Positions 1 to 27,773 of a DNA stretch of 40,403 bases are shown piece by piece. The stretch spans positions 1-40,403 of the IMG/VR virus record IMGVR_UViG_3300047666_000565; one strand, given 5' to 3'. Numbering within the stretch: the first letter of the stretch is position 1; the number at the start of each line of letters is the position of its first letter. The notes beneath the pieces were generated by a model. It saw only the letters and a program-made list of their open reading frames with translations, searched no databases and was not told where the DNA came from. Both the position numbers and the translations under genes were made by a program. This DNA is from a virus.

Positions 1-1
1 T

Positions 2-127
2 TGCGGCGAATGCGAAGCCATTGAGGTGGCGCGATCCGAAGATCACTGCCCCGAATGCGACAGTGAATTATTTGACAAATACACCGATTGGTTATCAAGC
101 CAAGAGGAACCCCTAGAAACTCAATAA
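2..127 (+). CDS. C-terminal fragment of a small zinc-ribbon protein
   Basis: An open frame enters from the left edge and ends at a TAA at 125-127, giving 41 residues with no start in view. It holds two CxxC pairs (CGEC near the start and CPEC about 13 residues later), the layout of a small zinc ribbon, followed by an acidic, glutamine-ending tail. The next gene begins 15 bp downstream behind an AAGGACC ribosome-binding site, so the fragment belongs to the same plus-strand run. Function is unknown; a zinc-binding structural role is inferred only from the cysteine spacing. Confidence 0.55.
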   Translation, partial: CGECEAIEVARSEDHCPECDSELFDKYTDWLSSQEEPLETQ

Positions 128-142
128 TAAGGACCGATCAGA

Positions 143-865
143 ATGCAGTTGATCCACGGAGATTGCCTAGAAGTGATGCACGACATACCGGATCAATCTG
201 TTGATATGGTACTGGCCGACCTTCCGTATGGCACAACGCAATGCAAATGGGACACCGAAATTGACCTGCAGGCACTGTGGGTGCACTACAACCGCATCTG
301 CACTGGGCCTGTTGTTTTGTTCGCTCAATCCCCATTCGACAAGAAACTTGGAATGAGCCAGATACATCGCCTCAAGTATGAGTGGATATGGGAAAAGACA
401 CACCCAACTGGACATCTGAACGCTAAGAAAATGCCGATGAAAGCGCATGAGAACTTGCTTGTGTTCTATTCAAAGCAACCGCTGTACCAGCCAATCAAAA
501 CAACAGGTCACAAGCGCAAGACAGCAACGAAGCACAAAGATGAAACGCCCGTTTACGGAAAGCAGAGCTTTGAGGCTGTCACCTACGACAGTACCGAAAG
601 ATACCCACGAAGTGTTCTAGAATTTCCATCTGATAAACAGCGCCTGAAGCTACACCCAACGCAGAAGCCCGTCGATTTACTGCGCTACATGATCCGAACC
701 TACACCAGAGAGGGTGACACCATTTTGGACAATGTTATGGGGTCAGGTTCAACTGGTGTGGCTTGCCTTCTGGAGGGTAGAAACTTCATCGGAATTGAGA
801 AACAGGCAGACTACTTTTCTGTCGCTGAAAGTCGGCTGAAACAGCCGCTAGATTTAATCGCATAG
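143..865 (+). CDS. site-specific DNA methyltransferase (N6-adenine/N4-cytosine class)
   Basis: A 240-residue protein of the N6_N4_Mtase family, which moves a methyl group from S-adenosylmethionine to the exocyclic amine of adenine or cytosine in DNA. The catalytic DLPYG (DPPY-type motif IV) lies at residues 26-30. The AdoMet-binding loop, GSGSTG, lies near residues 200-205 just before the C-terminal FIGIE strand. Motif IV before the AdoMet loop is the beta-class order, and the length suits the short phage versions. No restriction enzyme gene is adjacent, so it is likely an orphan enzyme that marks phage DNA against host restriction or affects its own regulation. Start chosen at 143 behind AAGGACCGATCAG. 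The recognised sequence cannot be read from the gene. Confidence 0.92.
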   Translation: MQLIHGDCLEVMHDIPDQSVDMVLADLPYGTTQCKWDTEIDLQALWVHYNRICTGPVVLFAQSPFDKKLGMSQIHRLKYEWIWEKTHPTGHLNAKKMPMKAHENLLVFYSKQPLYQPIKTTGHKRKTATKHKDETPVYGKQSFEAVTYDSTERYPRSVLEFPSDKQRLKLHPTQKPVDLLRYMIRTYTREGDTILDNVMGSGSTGVACLLEGRNFIGIEKQADYFSVAESRLKQPLDLIA

Positions 866-879
866 AAAGGACCATCACC

Positions 880-1119
880 ATGTCAGATAAACTTATTACC
901 ACCATGAAGGGCGCAGTGCGTGATTTCCTGATGCCGGAAACATACGTCCGCAAATCACCCGGCGGGACGTGTAAGGCTAATAGCGAAGTTGCCATGCCAG
1001 CGCACAACCACGCGGACAGCGCTATCGTGGAAATAAATCGCCAGCGCGACCAAATGTTTATAAATGATATTATCTATTTTTTGGACAGCGAAGAACACGA
1101 AACAAATAAACCACGATAA
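880..1119 (+). CDS. small hypothetical protein
   Basis: A 79-residue protein that I do not recognise. It starts 14 bp after the methyltransferase stop behind AAAGGACC, the same leader box used by the neighbouring small genes. The sequence is hydrophilic, with a histidine-containing middle (PAHNHADSA) and an isoleucine-rich helix followed by an acidic tail. There is no signal peptide or membrane segment. It is probably one of the small host-takeover or accessory proteins found at phage genome edges. The confidence is in its being coding, not in any function. Confidence 0.6.
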   Translation: MSDKLITTMKGAVRDFLMPETYVRKSPGGTCKANSEVAMPAHNHADSAIVEINRQRDQMFINDIIYFLDSEEHETNKPR

Positions 1120-1131
1120 AGGACGCCTGAC

Positions 1132-1338
1132 ATGAATGCTGAATACGGATGCAAGAGAACCTTCGGAACCACAACCTACGGCGTGTCGGGCTGTCTCAGC
1201 GCCGAAGAAGCCCTTGAATATGTGTTTCGTCGCGCCTTTGAAAATGGCGATTGGAGGCCCCGCGACTTGCGCGAAAAGTGGTGGCAGTTTTGGCGGCCAG
1301 TTGAACACACAGAACTTGAACAGAAATTCACAGATTAA
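1132..1338 (+). CDS. small hypothetical protein, Trp/Arg-rich C-terminus
   Basis: A 68-residue protein starting behind AAAGGACGCCTGAC. It has a cysteine-containing N-terminal half (residues 1-20, CKRTFG...GVSGC) and a helical second half rich in tryptophan and arginine (EKWWQFWRP). The family is not recognised. It closes the small-gene run upstream of the hairpin terminator and MPE-A. The equivalent position before MPE-B is held by an unrelated small gene, so the segment upstream of the terminator is variable. Confidence 0.6.
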   Translation: MNAEYGCKRTFGTTTYGVSGCLSAEEALEYVFRRAFENGDWRPRDLREKWWQFWRPVEHTELEQKFTD

Positions 1339-1349
1339 CCGCCAAGAAA

Positions 1350-1412
1350 ATGCCCAACCAAAAACCCGTTGCCTTGATTGGTCGCGGGTTTTTGTTGTTA
1401 AAACGCCCTTAA
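1350..1412 (+). CDS. possible leader mini-ORF spanning the terminator (20 aa)
   Basis: ATG at 1350 opens a 20-codon frame containing QKPVALIGRGF and runs through the terminator hairpin to a TAA at 1410-1412. The second locus has an ATG at the same distance, a different start of the peptide, and the same QKPVALIGRGF core. Here the ribosome-binding site is weak (AAGAAA). The conserved wording may simply reflect conservation of the hairpin DNA, so coding is uncertain. Confidence 0.2.
   Translation: MPNQKPVALIGRGFLLLKRP
1360..1393 (+). terminator. Rho-independent terminator (can act both ways)
   Basis: AAAAACCCG at 1360-1368 pairs exactly with CGGGTTTTT at 1385-1393, with a 16-nt loop. The A and T runs on both sides allow function on either strand. 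It separates the small-gene run from MPE-A and has a near-identical counterpart at 38849-38880. Confidence 0.75.
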
Positions 1413-1493
1413 GTTGAAAACCCTTAACAATCAAACCCCTGCGTGATACGCATAGACAACGCAAGCAAATTTCAATATTTGGAAGGTTAACCC

Positions 1494-2654
1494 ATGCCAA
1501 CTCCCACCATGTCTGATGCACTCGCAATTCAAGCCCTTGACGCCTTCGGCCGCAATAAAGAAAATTACGCAGACGCCGCAAGAGAAGTCGGGGTGCTGTA
1601 CAGCACATTCTATAGCCGAGTAAAAACTGCCAAAGAACGCGGGTTGCATTTATCCGAGGGCGCAAAGAACGCCATGCACAGCGCGGGATTAAACGGCGCG
1701 GAGGCAAAGGGCGGATGGATTCACAACTATGACCCGTCAACAGGCAACAAGACAGGCACAACGCGATGGTCTGCGCCTGTTGATGCAGAGGCCGCGCAAA
1801 AAAGCATCCTTGAAAACATCGCTAACGCCTTTGAAGGGATTAAATCGTTCCAAATTCCGCAGCCTGTCAACTTAGACGGCGATCACATGACAGTTTACCC
1901 GCTTTACGATATGCACATAGGGATGATGGCTTGGGGCAGGGAGACAAGGGGCCAAGACTTTGATTTGAAGTTAATGAAGTCCGACCTTATGCAGTCGATC
2001 ACGACGGTCATGGCCCGTTCACCCGACAGCACGGAGGCGCTGATAATCTTAGGCGGCGACACCATCCACGTAAACGATCACTTTAACGAGACGCCAGCAT
2101 CCGGCCACCACCAAGACGCTGATGGCCGCTTTGAAAAGATTATTGATGTTGCAATCGAAGCTATTAGTGGGGCCATTGAATTAGTCGCTCAGAAACACGC
2201 AAAGGTCAAAGTCCTAGTGCTACGAGGCAACCACGACGAAACGTCCCACATCGTCCTAAAAGCGGCCCTAAAACAACGATACCGCAACACCGACCACATC
2301 GAGTTTCCAGTGCTTCCCAAATGGGACAAGTCAGAGATTTATTGGCAGGTTTTTGGCGACGTTCTTATAATCACCCACCACGGCGACAAGGCCAAGCCCG
2401 AAAAGCTGGCAATGATTGCCGCCGATAAATGCCCGTTTTGGTCCGGCGCAAAATACCGCGTTATCCTGACGGGTCACATTCACACCCTCAAAGTCATGGA
2501 TATGCCAGGCGTCACGCATTATTCATTGCGTGCGTTCTGCCCACCAGACGCATACGGCGCAAACTTTGGCGGCGTCCGTGGTATCCAAGCAATGACGTTT
2601 GACAAATCAAAAGGGCTTGTTGTATCTGCGCACGATCCGATTAACAGGGATTAA
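1494..2654 (+). CDS. metallophosphoesterase with N-terminal helical domain (MPE-A)
   Basis: A 386-residue calcineurin-like phosphoesterase; the family uses two metal ions to cut phosphoester bonds, often in DNA (SbcD/Mre11 relatives). All core motifs are visible: DMH at 139-141, GGDTIH at 187-192, GNHDE at 244-248, THHGD near 293-297 and GHIH at 326-329. Residues 1-95 form a separate domain with a helix-turn-helix look (AAREVGVLYSTFYSRVKTAKERG), suggesting DNA binding. That domain and the flanking DNA recur in MPE-B, but the catalytic cores differ. Start at 1494 follows GGAAGG. The gene converges on the late operon. A nuclease role is inferred; the substrate is unknown. Confidence 0.88.
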   Translation: MPTPTMSDALAIQALDAFGRNKENYADAAREVGVLYSTFYSRVKTAKERGLHLSEGAKNAMHSAGLNGAEAKGGWIHNYDPSTGNKTGTTRWSAPVDAEAAQKSILENIANAFEGIKSFQIPQPVNLDGDHMTVYPLYDMHIGMMAWGRETRGQDFDLKLMKSDLMQSITTVMARSPDSTEALIILGGDTIHVNDHFNETPASGHHQDADGRFEKIIDVAIEAISGAIELVAQKHAKVKVLVLRGNHDETSHIVLKAALKQRYRNTDHIEFPVLPKWDKSEIYWQVFGDVLIITHHGDKAKPEKLAMIAADKCPFWSGAKYRVILTGHIHTLKVMDMPGVTHYSLRAFCPPDAYGANFGGVRGIQAMTFDKSKGLVVSAHDPINRD

Positions 2655-2655
2655 A

Positions 2656-2671
2656 CGCCCAACCAAGGGCG
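2656..2671. terminator. short hairpin between convergent transcripts
   Basis: CGCCC at 2656-2660 pairs with GGGCG at 2667-2671 and is followed by an AT-rich stretch. It lies between the end of MPE-A and the end of the minus-strand late operon. The five-pair stem is weak, so terminator function is plausible rather than certain. Confidence 0.4.
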
Positions 2672-2676
2672 CAATT

Positions 2677-2901
2677 CTATTTTGCAAACGCGCCAAACAG
2701 TCCCGACTTGAACGCGGCGAAAGCTAGCGCAAACGCAACGCACCATTTGAGCGTAGCGCCAGCATAGCGCATGACCGTTAGGAAACCTTTGATTGAGTTC
2801 CATGCGTCCATGACTTCCTCAAGGGCTTCAAGTTGTTCAGGGGTGTAATCATCAGGCGATTTGTTTTTCATCTTTTCAACTACGTCCTTTACGACATCCA
2901 T
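2677..2901 (-). CDS. small membrane protein, holin-like candidate
   Basis: A 74-residue protein with a charged N-terminal half (EKMKNKSPDDYTPEQLEALEEVMDAW) and one hydrophobic segment near the C-terminus (WCVAFALAFAAF, about residues 52-66). It is the last gene of the late operon, 5 bp after the Rz1 stop; I chose the ATG at 2901 because upstream extension would overlap Rz1 deeply. Position in the lysis cassette and the single membrane segment suggest a holin or lysis helper, but the family is not recognised. A second, partial copy of the end of this gene lies at 40235-40403, with an identical protein over the compared part. Confidence 0.7.
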   Translation of the reverse strand: MDVVKDVVEKMKNKSPDDYTPEQLEALEEVMDAWNSIKGFLTVMRYAGATLKWCVAFALAFAAFKSGLFGAFAK

Positions 2902-2905
2902 CTTA

Positions 2906-3124
2906 TTACACAACGCCCCCACCCCCGACAGCCCAGCACCCGTTTTTGACGCCGTTCCGATTGTGGGCGAGAATAAATTCCGCAGTGGCCTCAGTGATAA
3001 TATCATCTTCGCCCACTAGAGTAGGGGCACGACCAGCACAAACACTATCGCGATTTAGGGCGGGTCCAGTTACGGCGCAACTCATTAGCAGCATTGATAA
3101 CCCTAACATCATCATCAATTTCAT
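2906..3124 (-). CDS. Rz1: o-spanin (Rz1-like outer-membrane lipoprotein)
   Basis: A 72-residue protein beginning with a lysine plus a run of hydrophobic residues and a lipobox LMSC at residues 13-16, so Cys16 would be lipidated after signal peptidase II cleavage. The gene starts inside the Rz-like gene in another frame and overlaps it by 80 bp, the classic nested arrangement of lambda Rz/Rz1. It would sit in the outer membrane, bind the inner-membrane spanin and fuse the membranes at lysis. The mature part is not especially proline-rich and extends past the end of Rz, which is somewhat unusual. Confidence 0.75.
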   Translation of the reverse strand: MKLMMMLGLSMLLMSCAVTGPALNRDSVCAGRAPTLVGEDDIITEATAEFILAHNRNGVKNGCWAVGGGGVV

Positions 3125-3284
3125 CTCGTATCTCTTTCCGAGCGTTTGCGCCCTTTGTAATCTTGTTGTGAAGTTTAGTTTCAGCGTTCGTGCCGCCCTT
3201 GCGATATGCGGCAAACAGTGCGGCCACAGCGGCCAAGGCACCTGCGATGTAGGGAGCGAATTGTGTCAGAATTGCGGTGATCAT
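3045..3284 (-). CDS. Rz: i-spanin (Rz-like inner-membrane spanin)
   Basis: A 79-residue protein with an N-terminal membrane segment (residues 3-26, ending at AAYRKGG) and a charged, helical periplasmic part (ETKLHNKITKGANARKEIRDEIDDDV) likely to form a coiled coil. This is the layout of an Rz-type i-spanin. The start at 3284 follows GGAGG and overlaps the stop of the preceding gene (ATGA). With Rz1 it would bridge the periplasm in the last step of lysis of a Gram-negative host. Confidence 0.75.
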   Translation of the reverse strand: MITAILTQFAPYIAGALAAVAALFAAYRKGGTNAETKLHNKITKGANARKEIRDEIDDDVRVINAANELRRNWTRPKSR

Positions 3285-3460
3285 GTTGTGCCTCCAGTCT
3301 TCTTGGCCCATGCATACGCGCCTTCAACAGACGCGCCCAAGGCAAGCGCCAGCGTAGACACTATGTCAGGATCGCCCGCAAGCATATCGCCTTGCGCGAG
3401 GCCGACCACAGCCCCAGCGCCGTATCGCAGGATAATTCTAGCTACTGGTGCGTAGTTCAT
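3281..3460 (-). CDS. small hydrophobic protein of the lysis cassette (holin candidate)
   Basis: A 59-residue protein with two weakly hydrophobic segments (IILRYGAGAVVGLA and IVSTLALALGASV) separated by an acidic turn, ending in a lysine-containing tail. It is joined by ATGA overlaps to the amidase before it and the Rz gene after it. That position, between endolysin and spanins, is where holins are often found. The hydrophobicity is modest and I do not recognise the family, so the holin label is an inference. Confidence 0.6.
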   Translation of the reverse strand: MNYAPVARIILRYGAGAVVGLAQGDMLAGDPDIVSTLALALGASVEGAYAWAKKTGGTT

Positions 3461-4023
3461 TTTGTAACCCCAAAGAATGATTTTATCAGCGCAGCAAGCC
3501 AATGCACTTCTGGCGCAGGCTCCTTGCAATTCAACCGCGTGACCTTCGGCACTGACGCGGCTTTGCCCAGCCATTCCCCGACGTTAAAGCAAGGACATGC
3601 TTTGGCCGAAACTTCGTTGTGGCCCATAACTTGCAACTCACGCCCTGCGGCCTCTTGGATTGCGGCAATGGTGTCGCGCAACCATTTGTCTTGCGCCGGG
3701 GTGTAGTGGTCGGAAAACGCATCATCCGCCGCGCCGCCTTTACCGCCTTGCAATGCTAAGTGGATGGTGTCCCGGTTATGGCCTTTCGCGCCCGCGCCTG
3801 TTTCTTCCCAAACGTCCCCGTCTTTGTCCAAGTCGCGGCCCATTGCCTCATCGCCAGAGTAGGTGCAGAGAGCGGCGTAGGCCACATCGTTCCAGCCCCG
3901 TCCTTTGACGTGCCAGTCCGTGACCTCCTTCATAATCGTTTTGGCTTTCTGGTTCTTGCGCCAGCCCTTTGGGGTGTCCAAACAGTGGATCATAATCTTA
4001 GTTTTGTGTGCGGGGATCTTCAA
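3457..4023 (-). CDS. endolysin: T7-lysozyme-like N-acetylmuramoyl-L-alanine amidase
   Basis: A 188-residue zinc amidase that cuts the bond between N-acetylmuramic acid and L-alanine in peptidoglycan. It aligns by eye with T7 gp3.5: the metal ligands correspond to His13 (MIHC), His135 (MGHN) and Cys143 in KACPCF. The catalytic tyrosine corresponds to Tyr49 (DVAY) and the lysine to Lys141. It lacks a signal peptide, so it needs a holin for export. The start is a TTG at 4023, overlapping the previous stop and preceded by GGAAGG at good spacing; the next ATG would cut off the first strand. About 35 C-terminal residues extend past the family core. Confidence 0.92.
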   Translation of the reverse strand: MKIPAHKTKIMIHCLDTPKGWRKNQKAKTIMKEVTDWHVKGRGWNDVAYAALCTYSGDEAMGRDLDKDGDVWEETGAGAKGHNRDTIHLALQGGKGGAADDAFSDHYTPAQDKWLRDTIAAIQEAAGRELQVMGHNEVSAKACPCFNVGEWLGKAASVPKVTRLNCKEPAPEVHWLAALIKSFFGVTK

Positions 4024-4316
4024 AACTTACCTTCCCAGACGCGAAGTTGCGAATTATCAGGGTCCATCATTTCCTTGGCAACAACTTCTTCCATTGCCTT
4101 AGAGTCTGACATACTCACGCCCCATTTTTTGGCCCACATCTGGAACATCTTAGCCGGGACAACGCCCACCAGCTTGTTGTCATTTCCGAAATTGTTTAGC
4201 CCTAGGCTTTTTAACGTTTTCGCTTTTTCCAACGCTGGCGTGAAGTCGTGCGTCTCCTGCACTGTCATCTTTCCCGCCATGTCGTCCCAAAGGATTTTCT
4301 CGCTTATTTTCGTCAT
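4020..4316 (-). CDS. hypothetical protein before the endolysin
   Basis: A 98-residue soluble protein starting MTKISEKILWDDMAGK, with a GAGGC ribosome-binding site lying inside the preceding gene. It contains an amphipathic helix (ALEKAKTLKSLGL) and a conserved-looking VVPAKMFQMWAKKWGVS segment. The stop overlaps the TTG start of the amidase. It sits between the capsid and lysis genes, so it may be a minor virion or late accessory protein. The family is not recognised. Confidence 0.65.
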   Translation of the reverse strand: MTKISEKILWDDMAGKMTVQETHDFTPALEKAKTLKSLGLNNFGNDNKLVGVVPAKMFQMWAKKWGVSMSDSKAMEEVVAKEMMDPDNSQLRVWEGKF

Positions 4317-4452
4317 GTGTTGCCTCAAATGTCTTGCGCGGGCGTTCATTCAACATCCGCTCTGCGTTTTCTTCTGTTGCCTCGAATGTCTGGCCTTGGC
4401 GGTGCAATTCGCCGTTGATAAACATGCCCTTGCATGTAACTCGATATTCCAT
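4180..4452 (-). CDS. small protein after the capsid gene, with long 3' overlap
   Basis: A 90-residue frame starting MEYRVTCKGMFINGELHRQGQ behind AAGAGG. The first ~47 residues look like the short beta-rich proteins often found next to phage capsid genes. The remaining part is lysine-rich, of low complexity, and shares 137 bp with the next gene in another frame. That tail looks like read-through of an ancestral stop near KTFEAT rather than a selected domain. The real gene is probable; its C-terminal end is in doubt. Confidence 0.55.
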   Translation of the reverse strand: MEYRVTCKGMFINGELHRQGQTFEATEENAERMLNERPRKTFEATHDENKRENPLGRHGGKDDSAGDARLHASVGKSENVKKPRAKQFRK

Positions 4453-4503
4453 TTTCACCTCTTGGATAAAAGGATGGGGCGACCAAAGCCGCCCCGCCTT
4501 AAT

Positions 4504-5454
4504 TTAAGTAATGGTGTTATCGAACACGCCGCCGTTTGCAGCTTCATTGCGTGACACCAAAGTCATTTCGGTTACGATTTGACGTTTGTCAGAATCGCCC
4601 GTCTTGGCTAGCGCAACGCTCTTAGTCGGACGCAGGATCGCACATGCCCACTTGTCCTTCTCAACAATAAACACATCGCGTGAACGATTTTCACGAGTTG
4701 GGACGAAGGAAACCGTACCCCAAGGTGTGACGTAAACGCTTACGAAGTTTTCAATCTTGCCTGCTGATGCTTCGGCGCGGGCATTGTTGTTACCAGCAAA
4801 GGCCAAGGCTTTGTTCATCTGGAAACTTGAAAGGAAAACCGTGTCTGGCTTGCCTCCAGACTGCCATGCCGCCTGCATAACACCATCAAAACGTGCTTGG
4901 TTAAACGCAAGCAAGGTTGTAGTTTCATCGGTACGTGCGTCTGAACCATCGCCCGTAGCGTCAGCTCCTTCATTTGCACCGAAATCAGTGTTTGAAATCA
5001 AAAATGTTGGCAGGCCAGCAAGCTCACGCGCAGTTGTCGCATTACCAGCAACTTTTGCGTTGTTGGCAAAAAGCGCCTTTTCTTGGTCAAGCTTCTGCTC
5101 TTTGCCCGCCTTGAGAACTTGATACGCCATTTCCTTGGCGCGTCCGGCTTTGGTCAAACCTTCATCCGTATCGGACACAATTACTGCATCTTTAAAGATT
5201 TGGGTCCGGTTGTCCAAGCGAGTCGTGGCAGAACGTGCTGTAGCTGCTGTGTCGTCACCCTCAATGTGGGCGTTAGCACCTGAACTGCGCAAATTATCTT
5301 GCTGCCATTCGTGCTTTGTGCTTGTCGCCTTGGTCTTGGCAATGCCGGAAAGAAACGGGGTTTCTTCTGGCGAAATGTCGTAAATCATATCGGACAAATC
5401 TTCACGGATGCCGACTTGATCGTATGAATCGTAGGTATTTGCTGGTTGTGCCAT
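4504..5454 (-). CDS. major capsid protein (SU10-like, DUF5309 family)
   Basis: A 316-residue capsid subunit. The N-terminus, MAQPANTYDSYDQVGIREDLSDMIYDISPEETPFLS when read in pieces, is the typical opening of the SU10-type/DUF5309 family of HK97-fold shell proteins. It is followed by the KHEWQQDNLR and RLDNRTQIFKDAVIVSDTDEG segments of the family. The start at 5454 follows a strong TAGGAGA site, as expected for an abundant protein. The scaffold gene lies directly upstream. Length is usual for a protein without a fused scaffold. It would assemble on the scaffold into an icosahedral procapsid around the portal. Confidence 0.93.
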   Translation of the reverse strand: MAQPANTYDSYDQVGIREDLSDMIYDISPEETPFLSGIAKTKATSTKHEWQQDNLRSSGANAHIEGDDTAATARSATTRLDNRTQIFKDAVIVSDTDEGLTKAGRAKEMAYQVLKAGKEQKLDQEKALFANNAKVAGNATTARELAGLPTFLISNTDFGANEGADATGDGSDARTDETTTLLAFNQARFDGVMQAAWQSGGKPDTVFLSSFQMNKALAFAGNNNARAEASAGKIENFVSVYVTPWGTVSFVPTRENRSRDVFIVEKDKWACAILRPTKSVALAKTGDSDKRQIVTEMTLVSRNEAANGGVFDNTIT

Positions 5455-5483
5455 TTGATATTCTCCTAAAAGGGGCTAAACCG

Positions 5484-6521
5484 TTATTGATTTTGCTCAA
5501 ACATTAGGGCCATGAAATCCTCAGAACTTCCCGACTTTCGTGCTTTCGCCAGTTGCTTTTCGCGGACCACGCTTTTTGGCTGTGATCTCCGTCCCGTCGG
5601 CTTGACTGACTTCTGGGGCTTGGGCGTAGTTTTTGCCGCCGCTGTGCCAGATTGCAATTCACGCCACCGCATCGCATCGTTTAAAACGCTAACCGCACGC
5701 GCATCCGTTAGTCCCGCCAATTCCTCGGCGCTGTATCCGTATGCACTTTGTCCAACATCCACCAATTTAGATTTCAGCACTCGCGCCTTTTCAGGGTCCG
5801 CGAAGTCTGGAATCATTTCAACTAGCCGTGCAGCCTGCTTTTGCATGTCCGCTTGGCTTTGTTGCTCTTGATATTCACGGGTCCGATTTGTCGTCTCTGA
5901 AAGCTGCGTCTGCTGTGCAGTGTAGTCAGCTACTTCAACGTCATATTGAGCCTGTGCACGCATGTAACCGATTGGATCGGTATCAAGCATTGTTTGGTCT
6001 GGTCGTTGCGGTTGGGCGATTAACCCGTTGGTTTGCAGTTTTTGGACGGCATCAGAAAACCTTTGCTGATCCGCTTGAAAGGCTGCAATGTCGGTTTGGA
6101 ACTGCTTTCGTCCCTCTGCCGTTTCCTGCATCCCTTTTTGAATGTACGCCTGCCCCGAATAGGAGCGCGTTAGGTCGTTTGCAGATACTTCAACGGATTC
6201 ACCATCAACTTTGACATTGAAAGCTAGGCTTCCGTCAGTTTTAAGTGAAACCTGATGCGAGTTCATCGCTTGCATCATTTTTTTGAAGTCCGCCGGACCG
6301 TCGCTTTGTTCGGCTGCGTCATCCTCATCGTTGGATTCGTCAAGTTCATACTCAACATCGTCCGCAGAATTGTCGTCGTCTTCCTCTTGGTCGTCTTCTT
6401 CAATAATCTCCGTTTCTTCAACTTCGGGCGCGTCTTCTTGCGTTGCCTCGGCTTCTTCCACTTCAATTGTTGAATCAAATAGCAGGCTTTCGGCTGCTGT
6501 ATCTAGGTCAGTCGTGTTCAC
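5484..6521 (-). CDS. scaffolding protein
   Basis: A 345-residue, very acidic protein placed between portal and capsid. Residues ~15-75 are almost only Glu/Asp (EEDDQEEDDDNSADD). A helical middle (about 130-220) rich in glutamine is a likely coiled coil, and the C-terminus is basic (KSVVREKQLAKARKSG). Acidic N-terminus, helical centre and basic capsid-binding tail are the usual make-up of phage scaffolds. The start is GTG at 6521, overlapping the previous gene by 14 bp. It should guide shell assembly and leave before DNA packaging. Confidence 0.85.
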   Translation of the reverse strand: MNTTDLDTAAESLLFDSTIEVEEAEATQEDAPEVEETEIIEEDDQEEDDDNSADDVEYELDESNDEDDAAEQSDGPADFKKMMQAMNSHQVSLKTDGSLAFNVKVDGESVEVSANDLTRSYSGQAYIQKGMQETAEGRKQFQTDIAAFQADQQRFSDAVQKLQTNGLIAQPQRPDQTMLDTDPIGYMRAQAQYDVEVADYTAQQTQLSETTNRTREYQEQQSQADMQKQAARLVEMIPDFADPEKARVLKSKLVDVGQSAYGYSAEELAGLTDARAVSVLNDAMRWRELQSGTAAAKTTPKPQKSVKPTGRRSQPKSVVREKQLAKARKSGSSEDFMALMFEQNQ

Positions 6522-6753
6522 GGTCCTGATCTTTCTTTGTTAGAATGTCGCCCGTTGACACATATCTGCGCAACTGACTTTTGACTTCATTAAGCGCCAA
6601 CACCATGCGCCGGGCCTCTAGCACTTCTGCCTCGGTTGCCGACACGCGAGAGAAAACGCCTGTGTGGTACAATAATACCCCATTGAAGGCGTCTTGTAAA
6701 ACGTCATCTTTTAAAAGTTCGTCCGCACGCTGCGCCTTTGCCCGTTTGTCCAT
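6508..6753 (-). CDS. small hypothetical protein between portal and scaffold
   Basis: An 81-residue helical, charged protein (KRAKAQRADELLKDDVLQDAF... EARRMVLALNEVKSQLRRYV). The ATG at 6753 overlaps the portal stop as TGATG, so translation is probably coupled. Small proteins of this sort are common between portal and scaffold in podovirus-like genomes, but the role is unknown to me. Confidence 0.65.
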   Translation of the reverse strand: MDKRAKAQRADELLKDDVLQDAFNGVLLYHTGVFSRVSATEAEVLEARRMVLALNEVKSQLRRYVSTGDILTKKDQDREHD

Positions 6754-8828
6754 CACATTTGGCCCCCGTTAAAGTTGCGCGTTGCGGCTTGTTGCGCCCC
6801 AATTTGGGCAACATCTACGCTTGTGCCGTACTGGCCAAGGATCTTTGCAGCATCGACAAGCAAGTCCTGCGCCATTTTGTCGCGGCTCAAGTCATCGCTT
6901 GACGCCATTTCAAGCATCTTGCGCTGGTGTTCCATTGCCGCTTTTTGCATATCAACCTGCGCACGGGTCTGGGCCTTCATTTGTTCGGCTTGTAGGAACG
7001 CCTGATTTGGATCTCCCTGCTGGCCTTGCTGTTGTGCTGCCTGCGCCGCCGCTTGCTGCATTTGCTGTTCAATCTGCGGATTCATAGGCTGCAGATAGCG
7101 GTCAACATTCGGCAAACCGCCAAGCGTCATCAGGTCCGCCGCTGTGTTGCGGATGTTCGTTAGCGTGACAAGCCCGTTTTGTGGACCATACGCGCCATAG
7201 ACTTGCATCTGCTGCTGCTGCATCATCTGTAGCATCATCATGCGCTCCTCGTGCTTGTTGTTGCCAATACCCACGGTTGTTTCCATGTCCATTTCAACGC
7301 CCCAAGAACGCGGGTCAACCGGGACAAATTCGCCGTCGATCCGCATCATTTCGTCAGGGTTTGGGTTTTGGCGTGCAATCGTGGCAATGGTTTTGAATAG
7401 CCGCTTCATGCCACCCTCGGCCAGCACCCGCGCCATAAGCTCCCCCACCGCCGTAGCGGCTGTCACAGCGGCATTAACGCCCGCCGCTGTCTGTGACTGC
7501 AAGGCGTCTGCATTAAGGCCCGCTGCCCCGTCTCCCACGCCTGTCTTGCCCCTAATCGCCTCGTCAAAGAACTGCATGGCAGGCAATGCGATTGTGGCAT
7601 TGGAACCAACCGTCAATTCGCGCACCTGGCTCACATCGGTCGATCTGATGATTGCCCCGTATTCGTTATTCATCACGTCGTCGGTCTCAACAGCTTGGTC
7701 ATTGATAACCAGTCGCGGGTTGTTAATCATCGCGATGTTGTCCAACAGGCCACGCATCAGCGACGTTGCCGCGTCTTGGTCGTCTATGATAATATCAACC
7801 AAGCTACGGCCAAAGAACGTGTGGGGTTCTGGGTCAACTTCAAAAACACTGAACGGGTTATAATCGCAAAGCTCATAATCAAGAACCTCGTAATTGTCGC
7901 CAGCGCATAGAAATTTATACAGACGCGGGACGCCCGTGCCTTGAATGTCCATTTTCATGTAGGCTTCAGTGATTTCAATCTTGCGCATAGAAGGATCAAT
8001 GCTGCTTTCACTATCGTTGCCATCGTACCCACGCCGCGCAAATTCTTCTTCTTCGTCCACAACGCCGCCCGTGCCGCCAAGTTCAAACACCTTGTCAAAG
8101 TCAAAGCCCATTGCCACAAGGTCGCCCACGCGGCCCTCGGACTTGTGCCCGCAAACGAAATAATCATCTAGGCTGATGGCGTCGCGATCCACAAAGAAAT
8201 CTTCGGGCGCAATGCTTTTGATTTTGATTTCACCGCGCGTGCTGGTCATGGCCACCTTGGCGTCATACATCGCTGGGGAAACCATCATGCCCATTGGGTC
8301 AATCTGCGCTTCCTGCGTGATTTCCGACTCGATAATCTCTGCTGTGTCGTCGCTTTCAAGTAATCGGAATTGATCCTCGGTCAGGCCCGTGTATTCGTCA
8401 ATCTCGACGTTTTTCGTTTCGTCATAATACGCCTTTGTAATGCCAACCTTTTTTACCAATGCGTCATGGATAACGTCGCTTAGAACGTCAAACCCATTGT
8501 TGCGATTGAACACATATTTTGCGTATTTGGTGGCCTGCTCTGCCGCTCGGACAGCCTGCGGACCACGCGGGACAAATTCAACAGGACTACCCGATTGCAA
8601 GAACACCCGCATCAGGGGCGGCTTGATTGCCCGCACCGTGTCACGGCACTTGGTTGCAACAACCTTTGAGCGGCCTTCCTCATGGCTTACCTTGGTTTTA
8701 CCATCGAAATACTTTTGGGCGGTGATACGATCCGGCGCAATTTCGCTTTCAATGAACGACACCGCGTCCTCAATTGCTTGGGACACCGCGTTGCTGATTT
8801 GGTCTTCTGTAAGTTTGGTTGGTTTCAT
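6753..8828 (-). CDS. portal protein
   Basis: A 691-residue protein of the large P22-like podovirus portal type. The portal is the dodecameric ring at one capsid vertex through which DNA is packaged and ejected and to which the adaptor binds. Supporting features are its size, its place before scaffold and capsid genes, and the N-terminal region (RITAQKYFDGK... RDTVRAIKPPLMRVF...) typical of these portals. A glutamine-rich helical C-terminus (IEQQMQQAAAQAAQQQGQQG, ~residues 595-615) resembles the portal barrel. The start at 8828 follows AAAGGA. Confidence 0.9.
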   Translation of the reverse strand: MKPTKLTEDQISNAVSQAIEDAVSFIESEIAPDRITAQKYFDGKTKVSHEEGRSKVVATKCRDTVRAIKPPLMRVFLQSGSPVEFVPRGPQAVRAAEQATKYAKYVFNRNNGFDVLSDVIHDALVKKVGITKAYYDETKNVEIDEYTGLTEDQFRLLESDDTAEIIESEITQEAQIDPMGMMVSPAMYDAKVAMTSTRGEIKIKSIAPEDFFVDRDAISLDDYFVCGHKSEGRVGDLVAMGFDFDKVFELGGTGGVVDEEEEFARRGYDGNDSESSIDPSMRKIEITEAYMKMDIQGTGVPRLYKFLCAGDNYEVLDYELCDYNPFSVFEVDPEPHTFFGRSLVDIIIDDQDAATSLMRGLLDNIAMINNPRLVINDQAVETDDVMNNEYGAIIRSTDVSQVRELTVGSNATIALPAMQFFDEAIRGKTGVGDGAAGLNADALQSQTAAGVNAAVTAATAVGELMARVLAEGGMKRLFKTIATIARQNPNPDEMMRIDGEFVPVDPRSWGVEMDMETTVGIGNNKHEERMMMLQMMQQQQMQVYGAYGPQNGLVTLTNIRNTAADLMTLGGLPNVDRYLQPMNPQIEQQMQQAAAQAAQQQGQQGDPNQAFLQAEQMKAQTRAQVDMQKAAMEHQRKMLEMASSDDLSRDKMAQDLLVDAAKILGQYGTSVDVAQIGAQQAATRNFNGGQM

Positions 8829-8840
8829 TTCGATAATCCT

Positions 8841-10841
8841 TTATTGCGGTCCACTTGGCGACAAAAGCCCGCCAGTTACTGCGCCGCCAGCCATTGCACC
8901 CGCTACCGTTGCAGCACGTCCCGTGCCGCTTGCTAGTGTGTTGCTAAGTTGCCTAACCTTGGCAATTAAGCCAGTTAGCGCCCGTTGGTCTGTCATCGCG
9001 GCCTTTACCAATTCGGGGTCATCCGAAACAAGTATTTTAACGACTTGGGACCGTTGCGCGTCTGTTAGTTCTGTTTTGCCCACCTTGTCAAAAACCTTTG
9101 ACGTTAGGCGTGCGACTGCCAGCGGGTTGCCCCGAACCGCCTCCAGAACATCGGACATACTGACGCCCAAACCCTGCCTTGCAATTTCTTGCGCTGTGTC
9201 AGTCGTTGGAGATCCACCCATAATAAGTCGCTGCGCCTTTTGTGCTTTGTCAGCGACCCCAATCTTTGAAAGCAACCCCTCAAGTTGGTCCTGCGGGAAC
9301 ACCTCCTGCAAAAGTAACCCCTCTTTTTTGGTCGGGTCCATCATGTTGCTGATCATGGTTGCCCGCGAACCCGTCGCTGCCTTGGCCTCAATTGACTGCA
9401 TCAAACCTGCGCGGAAAGCGTCCACAGCCTCACCCGCATTTGCACCCGAAGATATGGCTGCAAAGTCTGCCAGCTTTTCGTTCACATCGCCCACAAGTGC
9501 TTTATTACCAGCCTGATATGCGTCTCTGTTTGTCCTCACAGCGGACGCTTGCGCCCTAACACCGACAAGCGGGGGTGATGAATCGTCAAGAACACCCCGC
9601 AAATTCTTTTCAACATTTGATACAGACTCGCCAGCGCCCCCCATGTTTTCGGTTCTGAATAGGTTGGTTGCGCGGTTACCTATCGCCCTGCGCACGCTTT
9701 CCGCCTCCATTAAAGTTGGATCACGAGAAAAGATAACCTCGCCTGCGTCGTCTATGCTGAAGAACGGGGCTGTCCCTTCATCCGCACGTATCTTGATTTC
9801 CATTTCTTTTGCTGCGCTAGGGACGCGGCGCAAAGCGTCTTTCAGTGACGCAATAGTTTCGTCTGTTGCAGCAACACCTTCTAACCCACCGTAAGCCTTG
9901 CGTTCCGCCGCCTTCGTTGCTGTTTCGCTTGCGCGAGTAATTGACGCTTGACTGCCGGGGGCCGATCCACCCAAACCGCCACGCAATTCGTCCATCGCCG
10001 CGCCCCGTGTGGCCGCTGGTCTAGGGTTTATTGCGTTCATAATTTCAGTAGACGCCTCGCCACCCTGCGCACGGTAGCCCCTGACTGCCATCTGTACCGT
10101 TTCATTTTCAGCCAACAGTTTGCCGTCAATAATATCTTGGACAATTTCATCTGGTGTTTTTTCTGTTTGCTTTACGAGACGCTGTATTTCGTTTTGAACA
10201 ACGGTTGCACCGCGTGGACCTAGTGCAGCACGCGCCCCCATGATCAATCCATTGAAAGCTGCCCCCGCCGCCCTAACTGCACCTTGACCTACAGCGCCCC
10301 CAACAGTGCCAGCTACAACGCCGCCGGGAACCCGCGCAGCACGTTCGGCCAAGTCACCTTCGCCAGTGCCAAGCGCATACAGTCCGCCCTCCATCGCAGC
10401 ACGCCCCAAGACTCGCGCCGTTGTTGCTTGCCCGTAACCGGGCACGAACGCGGGGGCAAAAGCGCCGCCAAGCTCATACGCCATTGATTCAATCGGTCTG
10501 TCTGCGCTGTACGCATCAAGGCCACCCCGAATTTCGCCAATAGCGCTGTCATATGTTTGGCTGGGGGAAAGTGACCGCGCGCCAGCCTCAATTTCATCAG
10601 CAAAGCCAAGCGAAGCGCCTTGAAGCGCGGTCCTTGTCCTTTGAGTCGGAACAGGGGCAGGCGTTGCCAGAATGTCGGCCTCGATTTGGTCATCCATTGC
10701 CCGACTAGCTGGGCTTCTGGGGTCTTTCCTGCGCTGCAATTCAGCCACCGCCTGCGCCCGTGATAGCCTCGGCCCAGTTTGTCCGCTAGCCGCTGCTGCC
10801 CTGCGGGCAAGTTCCGCTTTTGCTTGTGCTGCTGTTGTCAT
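8841..10841 (-). CDS. internal virion / DNA ejection protein (large)
   Basis: A 666-residue alanine-rich protein. The N-terminal ~60 residues contain two similar basic helices (AQAKAELARRAAA and AQAVAELQRRKDP). Then come ALQGASLGFADEIEAG, a phrase I associate with internal proteins of marine podoviruses, and glycine/alanine-rich stretches able to insert in membranes (residues ~115-200). The C-terminus is also hydrophobic and glycine-rich. Such proteins are packed in the head and leave with the DNA to form a trans-envelope channel. The ATG overlaps the previous stop as TAATG. The precise equivalent in other phages is not certain. Confidence 0.7.
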   Translation of the reverse strand: MTTAAQAKAELARRAAAASGQTGPRLSRAQAVAELQRRKDPRSPASRAMDDQIEADILATPAPVPTQRTRTALQGASLGFADEIEAGARSLSPSQTYDSAIGEIRGGLDAYSADRPIESMAYELGGAFAPAFVPGYGQATTARVLGRAAMEGGLYALGTGEGDLAERAARVPGGVVAGTVGGAVGQGAVRAAGAAFNGLIMGARAALGPRGATVVQNEIQRLVKQTEKTPDEIVQDIIDGKLLAENETVQMAVRGYRAQGGEASTEIMNAINPRPAATRGAAMDELRGGLGGSAPGSQASITRASETATKAAERKAYGGLEGVAATDETIASLKDALRRVPSAAKEMEIKIRADEGTAPFFSIDDAGEVIFSRDPTLMEAESVRRAIGNRATNLFRTENMGGAGESVSNVEKNLRGVLDDSSPPLVGVRAQASAVRTNRDAYQAGNKALVGDVNEKLADFAAISSGANAGEAVDAFRAGLMQSIEAKAATGSRATMISNMMDPTKKEGLLLQEVFPQDQLEGLLSKIGVADKAQKAQRLIMGGSPTTDTAQEIARQGLGVSMSDVLEAVRGNPLAVARLTSKVFDKVGKTELTDAQRSQVVKILVSDDPELVKAAMTDQRALTGLIAKVRQLSNTLASGTGRAATVAGAMAGGAVTGGLLSPSGPQ

Positions 10842-12634
10842 TATCCGCCCTCTGCGATTGCTTGTAGTTCTGCGTCTGACATTCCAGAAAGATCAGGGCC
10901 ATCGACCGTTTTGGGTGGGGGCGATGCAGGGTTGGTGTAGCTTTCTATTGTGCGCTCTGACTGATATTTAACACGTTCCGCGCCCTGCTGAACCATAGCG
11001 TTGAACTCAACCAGTGCTGCCCTGAACTCTACAGGGTCTTGCGTCGTTTTCATACGAGACATTGCGGCTTCGGCCCGATTGCTTTCAAAATCTGTAATTG
11101 TGCCGCTGCCCTTTAGGAACTGTCGGGCCTGCAAGAACGCTTGCCCTTGTAGTTGCTCAATTCGGTTGGCAATATTAACCGCCTCGGCGCTGGTGTCTAA
11201 AAGCCTTCCAGGCAGGGGGCCTAACATGCGGTCAAGGTTAGGGTTGCTTAAGAGCGCCTGCACTTGGCTATCAACCGTCTCCGCGCTTGCTAGTGCCTGC
11301 GGTAGCATTATTTTAGCATTGGCTATGGCGTCTCCGTAGATTTTACCTTGTGCGCCCGCCCCCTTGGCCCCTGCCCCAGTTTCGGCCTCGGCCAAATTTT
11401 TACCAGTGGTCTCCGCCGCTGCGGACAATCCCGCACCACGAGTTGCCATAAATTCTTTATATTCAGGTGACTCCGGTTCGAATCCCGATGCCATCGCTTG
11501 ATCGTGCAAAGACCTGAAAGCTGCAGTATCGCCGCCGCCGTTGAGGATGTACTTTTGAAATTCAGGGGTGCCTTCTTCAAGGCCACCTGCCAACGCTTGT
11601 TGGCGCAAACCTTCATAAGATGCCGAAGTTGGTGCAGGCGCGTTTGCTGCGTTCATGGCATCCGAAGTTGCTTTAAGCCCAACTGCGTCAAACATTGCCG
11701 CAAACTGTTCACCGTTTGGCTGGCTTAAAATCCATTCGCGTGTTTGGTTGGTCCGTGCTGCTTGCGCTTGCTTGGCCCGCTCATCGCCTTGGCGTTTATT
11801 GCGGTCATCAAGTGCGGCCTGCGCTGGACCTTCAAGCCCCATGACACCCATTCGGCCCAATGCTGGGGCAATACGTGCCATTGTGTCACCGAAAGACTTG
11901 CGATTGTAGAAGGGCTGCGATGTTTCGCCCTGCGCGTTTGGATCGCGGCGTTGTATGCCCATAGAGCCAAGAAGCCCTTGCGGTTGCTGTGCCATTTGAT
12001 TGCCCTCGTTTGATAATATTCCGCCCGTTGGCGTGCTTGCTGCGCTGATAGGCTGTTGCCCAATAAACGGCGCAATGTCTCTTCGGATTGGACTTCGGCC
12101 AAGTGCCTCCATTGCATCGTCGGCAACGGGTTGGCTGCTTCCAATTAGCGTTTTGGCCATTAACTCACCAAATGACGTTTCGTCCTTAAATACGCTAGAC
12201 GCCGCGCCCCTGTCGGCCCCTATGCCGTGCGCAGCAATTAACCGCATGTCAGGCAGTGTCCCAAATGCATCACGGTACACTTCAGCAAATGCTTGAGGGT
12301 TTTCAAGTATGGCTTGCTGCATTGCTAAGTCACTGTTGAAAAAAGGCTCTGTGTGGATCGTGTTGGAGACGCCACGCCCGTTTTCCGACCTAGTTTTGAC
12401 ACCACGCACGGGATAATCCTGTATACCATACTGAGAAGCAAATGACGCTACCCCCGCATTGTATCTTTGGGCTGCTGCCCTCACTTCTGGGCTGGCGTTG
12501 TCTGGTATGACAACCTCAGTTCCTCGCGCGTTGCCAGACGGAGCGGCGTTGAAATCCATAGAAATGTTAGTCATGCCGCCCGTTGGCGTGTATTTTGCCC
12601 TAGTCCCCGGCGATATATAGAAATCCGAACCCAT
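10841..12634 (-). CDS. internal virion protein, unrecognised N-terminal domain
   Basis: A 597-residue protein transcribed just before the ejection protein. Residues ~35-170 form a compact-looking domain with several conserved-type polar motifs (RGVKTRSENGRG, TIHTEPFF, LIAAHG, DETSFGE). This could be an enzyme, perhaps a wall-degrading one, but I cannot name the family. The rest is long, helical and low in cysteine with alanine/glutamine runs, typical of ejected internal proteins. It ends in a proline-containing, acidic tail (GPDLSGMSDAELQAIAEGG). The start at 12634 follows AAGGGA. Confidence 0.6.
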   Translation of the reverse strand: MGSDFYISPGTRAKYTPTGGMTNISMDFNAAPSGNARGTEVVIPDNASPEVRAAAQRYNAGVASFASQYGIQDYPVRGVKTRSENGRGVSNTIHTEPFFNSDLAMQQAILENPQAFAEVYRDAFGTLPDMRLIAAHGIGADRGAASSVFKDETSFGELMAKTLIGSSQPVADDAMEALGRSPIRRDIAPFIGQQPISAASTPTGGILSNEGNQMAQQPQGLLGSMGIQRRDPNAQGETSQPFYNRKSFGDTMARIAPALGRMGVMGLEGPAQAALDDRNKRQGDERAKQAQAARTNQTREWILSQPNGEQFAAMFDAVGLKATSDAMNAANAPAPTSASYEGLRQQALAGGLEEGTPEFQKYILNGGGDTAAFRSLHDQAMASGFEPESPEYKEFMATRGAGLSAAAETTGKNLAEAETGAGAKGAGAQGKIYGDAIANAKIMLPQALASAETVDSQVQALLSNPNLDRMLGPLPGRLLDTSAEAVNIANRIEQLQGQAFLQARQFLKGSGTITDFESNRAEAAMSRMKTTQDPVEFRAALVEFNAMVQQGAERVKYQSERTIESYTNPASPPPKTVDGPDLSGMSDAELQAIAEGG

Positions 12635-20587: not shown

Positions 20588-20595
20588 GACGGCTC

Positions 20596-20617
20596 CTAGT
20601 TTTGGGGTCTTTTATCA
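20596..20617 (-). repeat. leader repeat, copy 1
   Basis: A 22-bp sequence (plus-strand core CTAGTTTTGGGGTCTTTT) directly upstream of the 51-aa gene, found again at 22344-22365 upstream of the ADP-ribosyltransferase-like gene. Its place at two late-gene starts suggests a promoter or mRNA leader element. Confidence 0.55.
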
Positions 20618-20646
20618 TACTTTACAGCCAAAAAAAAGGCTATTGT

Positions 20647-22332
20647 TTAGCGCAGCAACCCGCGCAGCATTTCCATGAATGGCAAAGGCTTGTCCGTATT
20701 CTGCGCACCTGACGCCAATAGTCCCGCCGTCGGGGATGCGTTCGCCGCGCTTAAATTGGACAAATGCGCAAACTCAGGATCGAAGCGGGCAAAGCGGGAC
20801 CGGATGTTGCTGGGGTCTATGGTTGTAGAGATAATCGCGCCGCTTCGCGTTGGAACGTCCAGACCACTGTACCCATCGTCGGCTGCACCATATGCAACTG
20901 CGTTCGCGTTCTGGCGCAGATTTCCTCCACCCTCCGTCAATTCTGCTGGAGTTACGCCCTTTCTAGTTCCCGCTACGAGGTTGTCGTATATCTGCGCGTC
21001 CTCCGCAAATATTCCGTTCCAAGCGTCAGGGCCAAGATAGCCTTCCGCCACATCCGGGGAGTCTCCCATGTAAACACCGGGGCCAGCGACTCCCCACTTG
21101 AACTTGTCAGCATCAAATGCATCGAACCCGCCAGTTGGTGTCCCGTGATACAGAGGCGTCCCCGTATCAAACCCTGCATCCTCAGCCCGCGCCATCCTTG
21201 CAGCCTCACCCATATCCAGCGGCGTATTTGCAAACATATATTGATCGTCAGCCAGCGCCATCATTTCGTCGGTCACGTCGCCAGCCCGTCCATCCGCACG
21301 CATGTCCAGAATGTCACGCGCTTGGCGTTGCGCACCGCTTAGACCCGCACCTATAAGTCCGCCTGATTGCGAGGCGTTGGCGTTAATGTCACCAAAAAGG
21401 GCGTCCCACTCCGCATTAATACGAGATTGGGCTTCTGGAGATATTGGGTCATCCGTCGCACGCTCCCTTGCTGGCCTGTCTGGATACGCAAGAGCCTCGC
21501 CCCTAGGCCCAGAATAGGCGGTAAACCCACCGCCGAATTTGCTAGGGTCGTCCATCCTGTAACCCATGCTAGGGTCAGAGACAGGAGCTTGATATGTTTC
21601 GCCGTCTGCGTTTGTCAGTTTATAGCCGTACCGTTGCGGGTTCTGTTGATCCACCCAATATCCGTCTATTGACCAATCACCCTCCATATTCCATGTATTG
21701 GGAGGACTGACCCTAGAGCCGACCTGCAAAGGCATAGCGCCGTCTGTGTGTAGCGCAAAACCAGCGTCGTCAATCCGTTGCTGATACCTACCCGACTGCA
21801 CGTCATCGGCAACCCCCCTAATCTTGTCAATAAAGTTAGCCTTGTCTCTACCAGCCCTTGCCGCTGCAAAATCCAAAACGCCATCACGCCCACCCATGCC
21901 GACACTGCCAGCGGGACGCGCAGCCAAGCCACCGCCGCCCATTGCCAAGCCTGCCGTGCCTAGCGCCTCGCCCGACATATCGTCTTGCGGTATTAGATTA
22001 CGGGCCGCTGAATATGGCGCGTCGAACGCCTGACCAAGTGCCTGACCCGCCCCAAGAAAGCCGCCCAAACCCTCGAAGCCGACGCTTCTTAGCGCGTCCA
22101 AGCCCGTGGTTCCAATCTCTTTGGACAGCAAGCCGCCAGCGACAGGACGACGCCCGCTTTCTGCAAGCCCCTGCTGATACTCATCTGCGGCGCTGTTAAT
22201 CGCTGAAAAGGGGCTGTTATGTGACCGATACTGCCGCACCAAGTCGTCGGTATTCCTGCCGCTAGAGCGCATTTCGCCAAGATATGCTTGGAAGTCAGCA
22301 AGCGGCAGGTCAAGGATGTTGTTTTCGCTCAT
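20647..22332 (-). CDS. virion-associated protein with ADP-ribosyltransferase-like C-terminal domain
   Basis: A 561-residue protein. The N-terminus (NILDLPLADFQAYLGEMR) and the Gly/Ala-rich region at ~115-150 look structural. Residues ~394-515 match the ADP-ribosyltransferase fold found in phage polyvalent proteins: LYHGT, then FDAFDADKF, GPGVYMGDSPDVAEGYL, DDGYSGLDV and a closing STTIDPSNIRSRF strand. This family transfers ADP-ribose from NAD to a target. The HGT and Y residues are present; the catalytic Glu is not certain. The gene lies between terminase and adaptor genes, so the protein may be packaged and injected. Target and activity are inferred. Confidence 0.7.
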   Translation of the reverse strand: MSENNILDLPLADFQAYLGEMRSSGRNTDDLVRQYRSHNSPFSAINSAADEYQQGLAESGRRPVAGGLLSKEIGTTGLDALRSVGFEGLGGFLGAGQALGQAFDAPYSAARNLIPQDDMSGEALGTAGLAMGGGGLAARPAGSVGMGGRDGVLDFAAARAGRDKANFIDKIRGVADDVQSGRYQQRIDDAGFALHTDGAMPLQVGSRVSPPNTWNMEGDWSIDGYWVDQQNPQRYGYKLTNADGETYQAPVSDPSMGYRMDDPSKFGGGFTAYSGPRGEALAYPDRPARERATDDPISPEAQSRINAEWDALFGDINANASQSGGLIGAGLSGAQRQARDILDMRADGRAGDVTDEMMALADDQYMFANTPLDMGEAARMARAEDAGFDTGTPLYHGTPTGGFDAFDADKFKWGVAGPGVYMGDSPDVAEGYLGPDAWNGIFAEDAQIYDNLVAGTRKGVTPAELTEGGGNLRQNANAVAYGAADDGYSGLDVPTRSGAIISTTIDPSNIRSRFARFDPEFAHLSNLSAANASPTAGLLASGAQNTDKPLPFMEMLRGLLR

Positions 22333-22343
22333 GCAATTAGCCC

Positions 22344-22365
22344 CTAGTTTTGGGGTCTTTTATCA
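22344..22365 (-). repeat. leader repeat, copy 2
   Basis: Second copy of the 22-bp sequence at 20596-20617, here 12 bp upstream of the start of the 561-aa gene. On the minus strand it reads TGATAAAAGACCCC and then AAAACTAG, and with the following GGGG it can form a CCCC/GGGG hairpin. Confidence 0.55.
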
Positions 22366-22390
22366 CACAATTGAGGCTAAAACAATACTG

Positions 22391-25586: not shown

Positions 25587-25834
25587 GCCACCACCCGCTT
25601 TTGTTTGCGCTTCTGGATCATGTAATCCCAATTGCGCTGACCGTAGCTGTCATATGTCCCTGATGGCCGCTGAACAAGTGCGCCAATTCCGCCCGCGGCG
25701 ATCCGTGCGTTCAGCTTTAATGCTTTAGAGCATCGCCCAACGGGTCCAGTGTAATAAATCAGGTTAGCCCCGTCTTTTGCCGCGGCGATTTCTCTGCGTA
25801 TGCCGTCAGGCAATGTTGATTTAATATTGGTCAT
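25583..25834 (-). CDS. small hypothetical protein
   Basis: An 83-residue protein starting MTNIKSTLPDGIRREIAAAKDGANLIYYTG, with a basic C-terminus (IQKRKQKRVVA). ATGA overlaps join it to the repeat-protein gene upstream and the HTH gene downstream. Unrecognised. Confidence 0.6.
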   Translation of the reverse strand: MTNIKSTLPDGIRREIAAAKDGANLIYYTGPVGRCSKALKLNARIAAGGIGALVQRPSGTYDSYGQRNWDYMIQKRKQKRVVA

Positions 25835-26088: not shown

Positions 26089-26109
26089 GTCTTTTCCTTT
26101 GATGTTTGT

Positions 26110-26307: not shown

Positions 26308-26320
26308 TTTTTTCTCCTTT

Positions 26321-26557: not shown

Positions 26558-26564
26558 GTATTGC

Positions 26565-26980: not shown

Positions 26981-26982
26981 GG

Positions 26983-27413: not shown

Positions 27414-27442
27414 GGTCTTATCCTTTGTTTGCTTCTATCCCA

Positions 27443-27471: not shown

Positions 27472-27481
27472 GGGTTAATTA

Positions 27482-27752: not shown

Positions 27753-27773
27753 TGTACATTTTGCCCCATTCAC

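Follow-up and report, generated by a model that had tools for sequence, protein, structure and literature searches.

The window analyzed here is the complete 40,403-bp IMG/VR record IMGVR_UViG_3300047666_000565 (G000), which has no larger parent. It encodes two related phosphoesterase genes, MPE-A (1494-2654, plus strand, 386 aa) and MPE-B (38981-40216, plus strand, 411 aa), one near each end of the record (Table 1). Both belong to the early block, whose plus-strand genes span 1-2654 and everything rightward of 30.4 kb and which faces a minus-strand late block. An endolysin-like ORF is found in the early block (36301-36774; phrog_938, E=7e-15) and an amidase in the late block (3457-4023). Two repeats were observed elsewhere in the record. 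A 12-nt repeat array at 25832-26010 comprises ten registers that are 65-83% alike to the reference and lies inside or beside a minus-strand ORF, where it would encode a four-residue repeat. A 46-nt direct repeat (20592-20637 and 22340-22385, 80%) flanks the late gene at 20647-22332 and is possibly a shared regulatory element. No named phage gave a near DNA match to positions 1-12000 of the window.

Table 1. Features of the two phosphoesterase loci, in order of position in the window.
Feature	Position	Strand	Basis or description
Hairpin, terminator-like (GC stem then T run), upstream of MPE-A	1359-1395	+	-22.4 kcal/mol, z=-5.65 vs shuffles
Conserved non-coding leader of MPE-A, with CCCTTAACAATCAA and near-palindrome TGCGTGATACGCA	1416-1493	+	88.7% identical to MPE-B leader
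MPE-A HTH region, codons 1-50	1494-1643	+	Weak HTH_30/HTH_23 matches; predicted helices 8-20, 25-32, 36-48
MPE-A linker, codons 51-98, GLHLSxGA...GGWIHNYD...GTTRWSAP	1644-1787	+	Alignments; predicted strands 73-79, 86-93
MPE-A core, type A, calcineurin-like/Mre11-like metallophosphoesterase	1788-2654	+	PF00149, phrog_704, Mre11 fold match, invariant ligands
Shared right flank, 3' part of late gene	2661-2845		9 allele mismatches at 2695-2734; identical from 2735
Convergent late gene, 109 aa, right neighbor of both alleles	2677-3006	-	L043 alignment
Hairpin upstream of MPE-B, weaker	38847-38885	+	-16.1 kcal/mol, z=-2.18
Conserved leader of MPE-B	38903-38980	+	Comparison with relatives' leaders
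MPE-B N-terminal HTH and linker, codons 1-98	38981-39274	+	HTH_8 E=4e-4, HTH_28 E=2.5e-3
MPE-B core, type B, remote homologue of core A	39275-40216	+	phrog_704, SbcD-like fold match, all metal-ligand motifs
Right flank reached again at contig end	40219-40403		Overlaps 2661-2845, last 111 bp exact

BLAST of positions 1340-2850 against the whole record returned matches at 38830-39189 (83%, E=3e-105) and 40219-40403 (185 bp, 95%, E=2e-81). The first-pass annotation of this DNA had described a leader and about 95 N-terminal residues common to both loci, followed by strongly diverged cores and by a return of similarity directly after the stop codons, and each of these observations was reproduced. 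The two genes have 361 bp in common at 83%, comprising the leader and ~97 codons of the N-terminus, and residues 1-97 of the proteins are 66% identical. The cores share 25% identity (BLASTP across residues 1-340 gives 35%), with the GHIH motif of MPE-A aligned opposite HHLH in MPE-B. DNA similarity restarts 7 nt beyond the stop of MPE-A (position 2661) and 3 nt beyond that of MPE-B (position 40219).

Motif content and modeled fold place both cores among Mre11/SbcD-like metallophosphoesterases, and the metal-ligand motifs are intact in each. MPE-A matches PF00149 (E=2.7e-4; 21.9 bits against a cut-off of 21.5) and MPE-B does not, while both match the phrog_704 profile (MPE-A, E=4.8e-77, residues 13-376; MPE-B, E=2.3e-59, residues 12-337). 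Shared membership in phrog_704 indicates that the cores are highly diverged relatives and rules out wholly unrelated domains. The five metal-ligand motifs of the calcineurin-like superfamily (DxH, GD, GNH, H, GHxH) retain their ligands in both types: D139, H141, D189, N246, H247, H296, H328 and H330 are invariant in the type-A alignment, as are D140, H142, D191, N246, H247, H295, H328 and H330 in the type-B alignment of 34 sequences. In type B, N replaces the G before the second D, SNHD begins with S instead of G, and HHxH begins with H instead of G. One type-B gene, L069, is broken into two ORFs (104 aa and 321 aa), for which a frameshift or a sequencing error is the probable cause.

Fold comparisons gave remote matches. 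The best match of the MPE-A core is Mre11 (4o43, E=3e-8, 13% identity), and the MPE-B core matches LpxH first and Escherichia coli SbcD (4lu9, E=1e-4) second, both with E of about 1e-4. TM-scores to Mre11/SbcD chains are 0.22-0.46, and matches of similar quality are obtained with LpxH or cyclic-nucleotide phosphodiesterase folds. Searching PDB sequences returned weak SbcD/Mre11 matches for MPE-A and none for MPE-B. The MPE proteins resemble Mre11/SbcD nucleases in their metallophosphoesterase fold and metal-ligand motifs, but differ in carrying an HTH ahead of the core and in their low identity (11-14%); no SbcC/Rad50 partner was recognized among the annotated window genes (a PHROGs scan of 30 window proteins other than the two MPE proteins, small ORFs excluded). 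The protein most likely serves early DNA metabolism as a DNA-binding phosphoesterase or nuclease, with DNA binding and activity predicted from domain content and modeled structure. Names given to relatives in databases conflict, and the OANV2 gene (L123, 25059-26294) and the pCB2047-A/C genes variously appear as a DNA polymerase subunit, a putative oxidoreductase or a DNA repair exonuclease. Among 84,980 bacterial and archaeal genomes scanned, one relative was found, in Sulfitobacter, so little is gained from host context.

Structure models of both proteins (mean pLDDT 75 and 79) show an HTH region of three helices and a linker containing a pair of strands, in addition to the metallophosphoesterase core. 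Scanning IMG/VR with a profile of the N-terminus yielded 42 loci, nearly all in records already found by core scans, and the two new loci, L159 and L160, bear further phosphoesterase cores. The same 42 loci include no N-terminus with a non-phosphoesterase partner and no empty allele; the complete N-termini found all precede a phosphoesterase core.

Within the window, CCCTTAACAATCAA and TGCGTGATACGCA occur solely in the two MPE leaders. Most close relatives also have the leader ahead of the gene, where it is ~88% identical whatever the core type and more constant than the HTH coding part (~70%), and it is possibly an operator or promoter of the phosphoesterase gene. A ~45-nt block found in most relatives' leaders is missing from the window version. 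Simple promoter and terminator scans gave scores no better than shuffles, and Rfam and tRNA scans were empty. The hairpin, which the first-pass annotation included among the shared parts, does occur at both window loci, in a weaker form at MPE-B; the upstream stretches of relatives that were inspected lack it, placing the hairpin outside the general cassette. An additional hairpin lies at ~36859-36898.

A sibling contig, IMGVR_UViG_3300049783_001097 (G001, locus L043), relates the two ends of the record to one another. It is 100% identical to window 25993-40403 (14.4 kb), and in it MPE-B runs directly into the sequence found after MPE-A, window 2661-4350. Relative to that flank the sibling contig has 9 differences at 2695-2734, then zero substitutions up to 4350 and a single 3-nt indel, at 4317. 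This junction indicates that MPE-A and MPE-B share one position on a 37,558-bp map (40219 minus 2661). The ends of the record have 111 exact bases in common (2735-2845 and 40293-40403), as expected for a contig whose strains differ at the joint. The contig would begin in an allele-A strain, circle the ~37.6 kb map and finish in an allele-B strain. A pattern search from the right flank matched the sibling contig alone, and a search for contigs sharing the window's left end, which would be more allele-A records, gave none; the record itself starts at 1.

Other records were consistent in carrying a single copy. Each of 49 carries one phrog_704 gene, and 13 of the 49 are 35 kb or longer; an extra partial match in one of them, G012, is that record's own overlapping contig end. 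Cultured phage OANV2 (MW805364), with a complete circular genome of 39,241 bp, has one B-type gene that adjoins the late block. In G012 (37,674 bp) the ends 1-190 and 37485-37674 overlap over 190 bp at 97.9%, inside its own phosphoesterase gene, and in G035 (42,175 bp) positions 1-249 match 40495-40743 over 249 bp at 97%, near its own phosphoesterase gene. These overlaps mark G012 and G035 as two more records that overrun their own start, in or close to the phosphoesterase gene.

These observations conflict with the first-pass annotation on one point, the placement of both copies in one phage genome. Were the genes carried in tandem (B, partial late gene, A), the sibling contig could be a deletion derivative formed between the flank copies; one record does hold both genes, and the flank repeats would be able to recombine. 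Yet the second flank copy is a truncated 3' part of the late gene that ends at the contig end in the exact overlap, the sibling contig goes directly on into late genes, a second copy is absent from all 49 other records, and two other records likewise overrun their own start. We consider this arrangement very unlikely; the sibling contig, the exact match between the contig ends and the presence of a single copy in relatives led us to reject tandem duplication. The reading of two loci, or two paralogs on one molecule, is very probably wrong, and the record most likely represents two strains' versions joined by assembly. We conclude with good confidence that the phage has a single copy of this gene, located where the early block ends, that MPE-A and MPE-B are its alternative alleles, and that its core appears to have been replaced in situ by recombination. 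Duplicate genes at the ends of metagenomic phage contigs can be strain alleles and not duplications, and should be read with that caution.

Relatives carry core types A, B and C, with ~25% amino acid identity between types. Within types, identity is 91-97% for A (L001, L005, L006, L007), mostly 73-98% for B among the closest records, and 86% for C (L020 vs L023). Pairs with different cores can have closely similar N-termini: L023 (C) and L029 (B) are 98% identical in the N-terminus and 22% in the core, L006 (A) and L030 (B) 87% and 27%, L020 (C) and L093 (B) 80% and 24%, and L005 (A) and L047 (B) 78% and 25%. A separate group of phages includes L159 and L160, whose N-terminal protein segments are identical and whose DNA is 94% identical over the leader and N-terminus, joined to different cores. 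Each of these pairs displays the signature of mosaicism, a near-identical segment joined to differing ones.

Mean nucleotide identities of pairs among 16 genes demonstrate the same pattern. Leader identity averages 88.9% for same-core and 88.3% for different-core pairs, and the HTH gives 68.7% against 70.3%. From same-core to different-core pairs the linker falls from 73.7% to 65.7% and the core from 82.6% to 42.5%. Mapped on the N-terminal tree, core A requires 4 changes (4 rows), core C 3 and core B 7, although the N-terminus itself recombines and this tree is therefore no phage phylogeny. The same core does not always follow this N-terminus: N-terminal lineages precede core A, B or C, and two distinct scars of in-situ replacement were observed. 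The comparisons indicate that core exchange at this marine-phage locus is real and recurrent, and that it is a case of phage domain mosaicism at a single locus. The cassette of constant ends and exchangeable enzyme domain proposed by the first-pass annotation stands as regards the leader, the flanks and cores A, B and C; it does not extend to a constant HTH, which is itself variable.

Close pairs define the boundaries of the exchanged segment. The flanks of L023 and L029 are ~92% identical on either side, and their alignment stops at codon 98 and restarts ~5 nt past the L023 stop. Three core-C genes (L023, L025, L026) are followed, just past their own stop, by QDGRFTVWF-stop, the ten-codon terminus of a B-type gene, and this remnant indicates that core C replaced core B in that lineage. 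A comparable remnant lies beyond the stop of L160, where CACATATTCGAGGACTGA (HIFED-stop) is the terminus of an L159-type gene. L007 combines a type-B linker with a type-A core, indicating that the left crossover shifts within a few codons. The MPE-A/MPE-B pair is scar-free, its right joint falling between the stop and the flank.

Taken as plain divergence of two old copies, without recombination and with the N-terminus under stronger constraint, the locus would still contain A and B cores that are remote homologues in one family, as observed. Similarity of cores within types and its loss between them, with N-termini that ignore core type, speaks against such divergence, as does the finding that the most conserved part is a non-coding leader, and the replacement scars beyond the stop codons contradict it; we regard it as improbable in the extreme.

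In the recombination we propose, the core would be replaced in situ between co-infecting phages, with a left crossover at the linker end, at about codons 95-101, and a right crossover at the stop or a few codons before it. Crossovers so placed would exchange the enzyme but leave the leader, the HTH and the neighboring genes in place. The genome encodes Sak4, SSB, a RecE-like exonuclease, a helicase and a primase, and the phage's own annealing-type Sak4/SSB/RecE-like recombination genes are likely agents, for which leader, linker and flank would provide short and diverged sequence. Phage Rad52-like recombinases recombine short, diverged sequences in the lytic cycle (PMC3945230). The text of that study, which concerns Rad52-like recombinases, makes no mention of Sak4, and we infer a role for Sak4 in core exchange from its presence in the genome.

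A core that spreads as a selfish homing-type cassette, cutting alleles with other cores and being copied in by repair, would fit the HTH-plus-phosphoesterase architecture and the fixed insertion site with its residual scars. The complete N-termini found all precede a phosphoesterase core and none is an empty allele, and no homing enzyme is known to use a metallophosphoesterase fold, both of which make homing highly improbable as the source of the pattern.

Domain shuffling in phage proteins is already known, and the homologous-core swap at this locus is a well-resolved new case. Fragments common to otherwise differing phage proteins, with recent shuffling in several functional classes, have been described (Smug et al., 2023; PMC10684548), and those authors note that horizontal swaps between homologous domains necessarily escape their domain-based method. 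Here, in contrast, the exchanged parts are homologous cores within one PHROG family; the word 'phosphoesterase' is absent from the text of that study. The family itself, phrog_704, is annotated as 'DNA repair exonuclease' (Sulfitobacter phage pCB2047-A/C, OANV2 gp36), and both window proteins match it over HTH and core. We found neither an experimental function for phrog_704 nor, in the publications consulted, an account of core exchange. The type-B gene of OANV2, a podovirus lysing Octadecabacter, shares 85% identity with MPE-B. Downstream of this OANV2 phosphoesterase is a DNA methylase; in the window, a DNA methyltransferase gene (143-865; phrog_67, E=1e-70) lies upstream of MPE-A, and the B allele has different genes there.

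Two characterized phage proteins offer comparisons for function. ICP1 Odn likewise combines a DNA-binding domain and a nuclease through domain shuffling, with alternative content at one phage locus, but its nuclease is from a homing-endonuclease family, and its target and interference have been demonstrated (PMC8263062). Gp48 of mycobacteriophage A10ZJ24 is described as an early phage metallophosphoesterase, the class to which the MPE proteins are assigned here, and nuclease activity is demonstrated in its report, where no mention of an HTH was found (PMC12287305).

The first-pass annotation suggested that the exchange could follow an arms race, for example against host defense or competing phages. 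On this reading, different cores would defeat different host defenses or competitors, with the target kept constant by the HTH. Such selection would be a motive for allele exchange and not an alternative to it. Cores that change while the leader and HTH stay would be consistent with it, as would, by analogy, Gp48, which aids evasion of host immunity (PMC12287305), and Odn, which acts against a rival element (PMC8263062). No sequence link between core type and host, defense or rival was found, and other segments of L023 and L029 have been exchanged equally freely. The latter finding suggests that the locus reflects general mosaicism, for which no special selection or arms race is needed, and we regard an arms race as possible, though on balance unlikely. 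It is doubtful, too, that the gene constitutes a fast-switching catalytic slot, in which a leader and DNA-recognition domain stay fixed and the nuclease is changed to track host defenses or rival phages; if so, near-isogenic strains would differ chiefly in the core they carry.

With its close pairs, defined crossovers and scars that show direction, the locus provides a clear natural example of enzyme-core exchange within one phage gene. Swaps limited to the core would make the function of a very common phage phosphoesterase family open to test.
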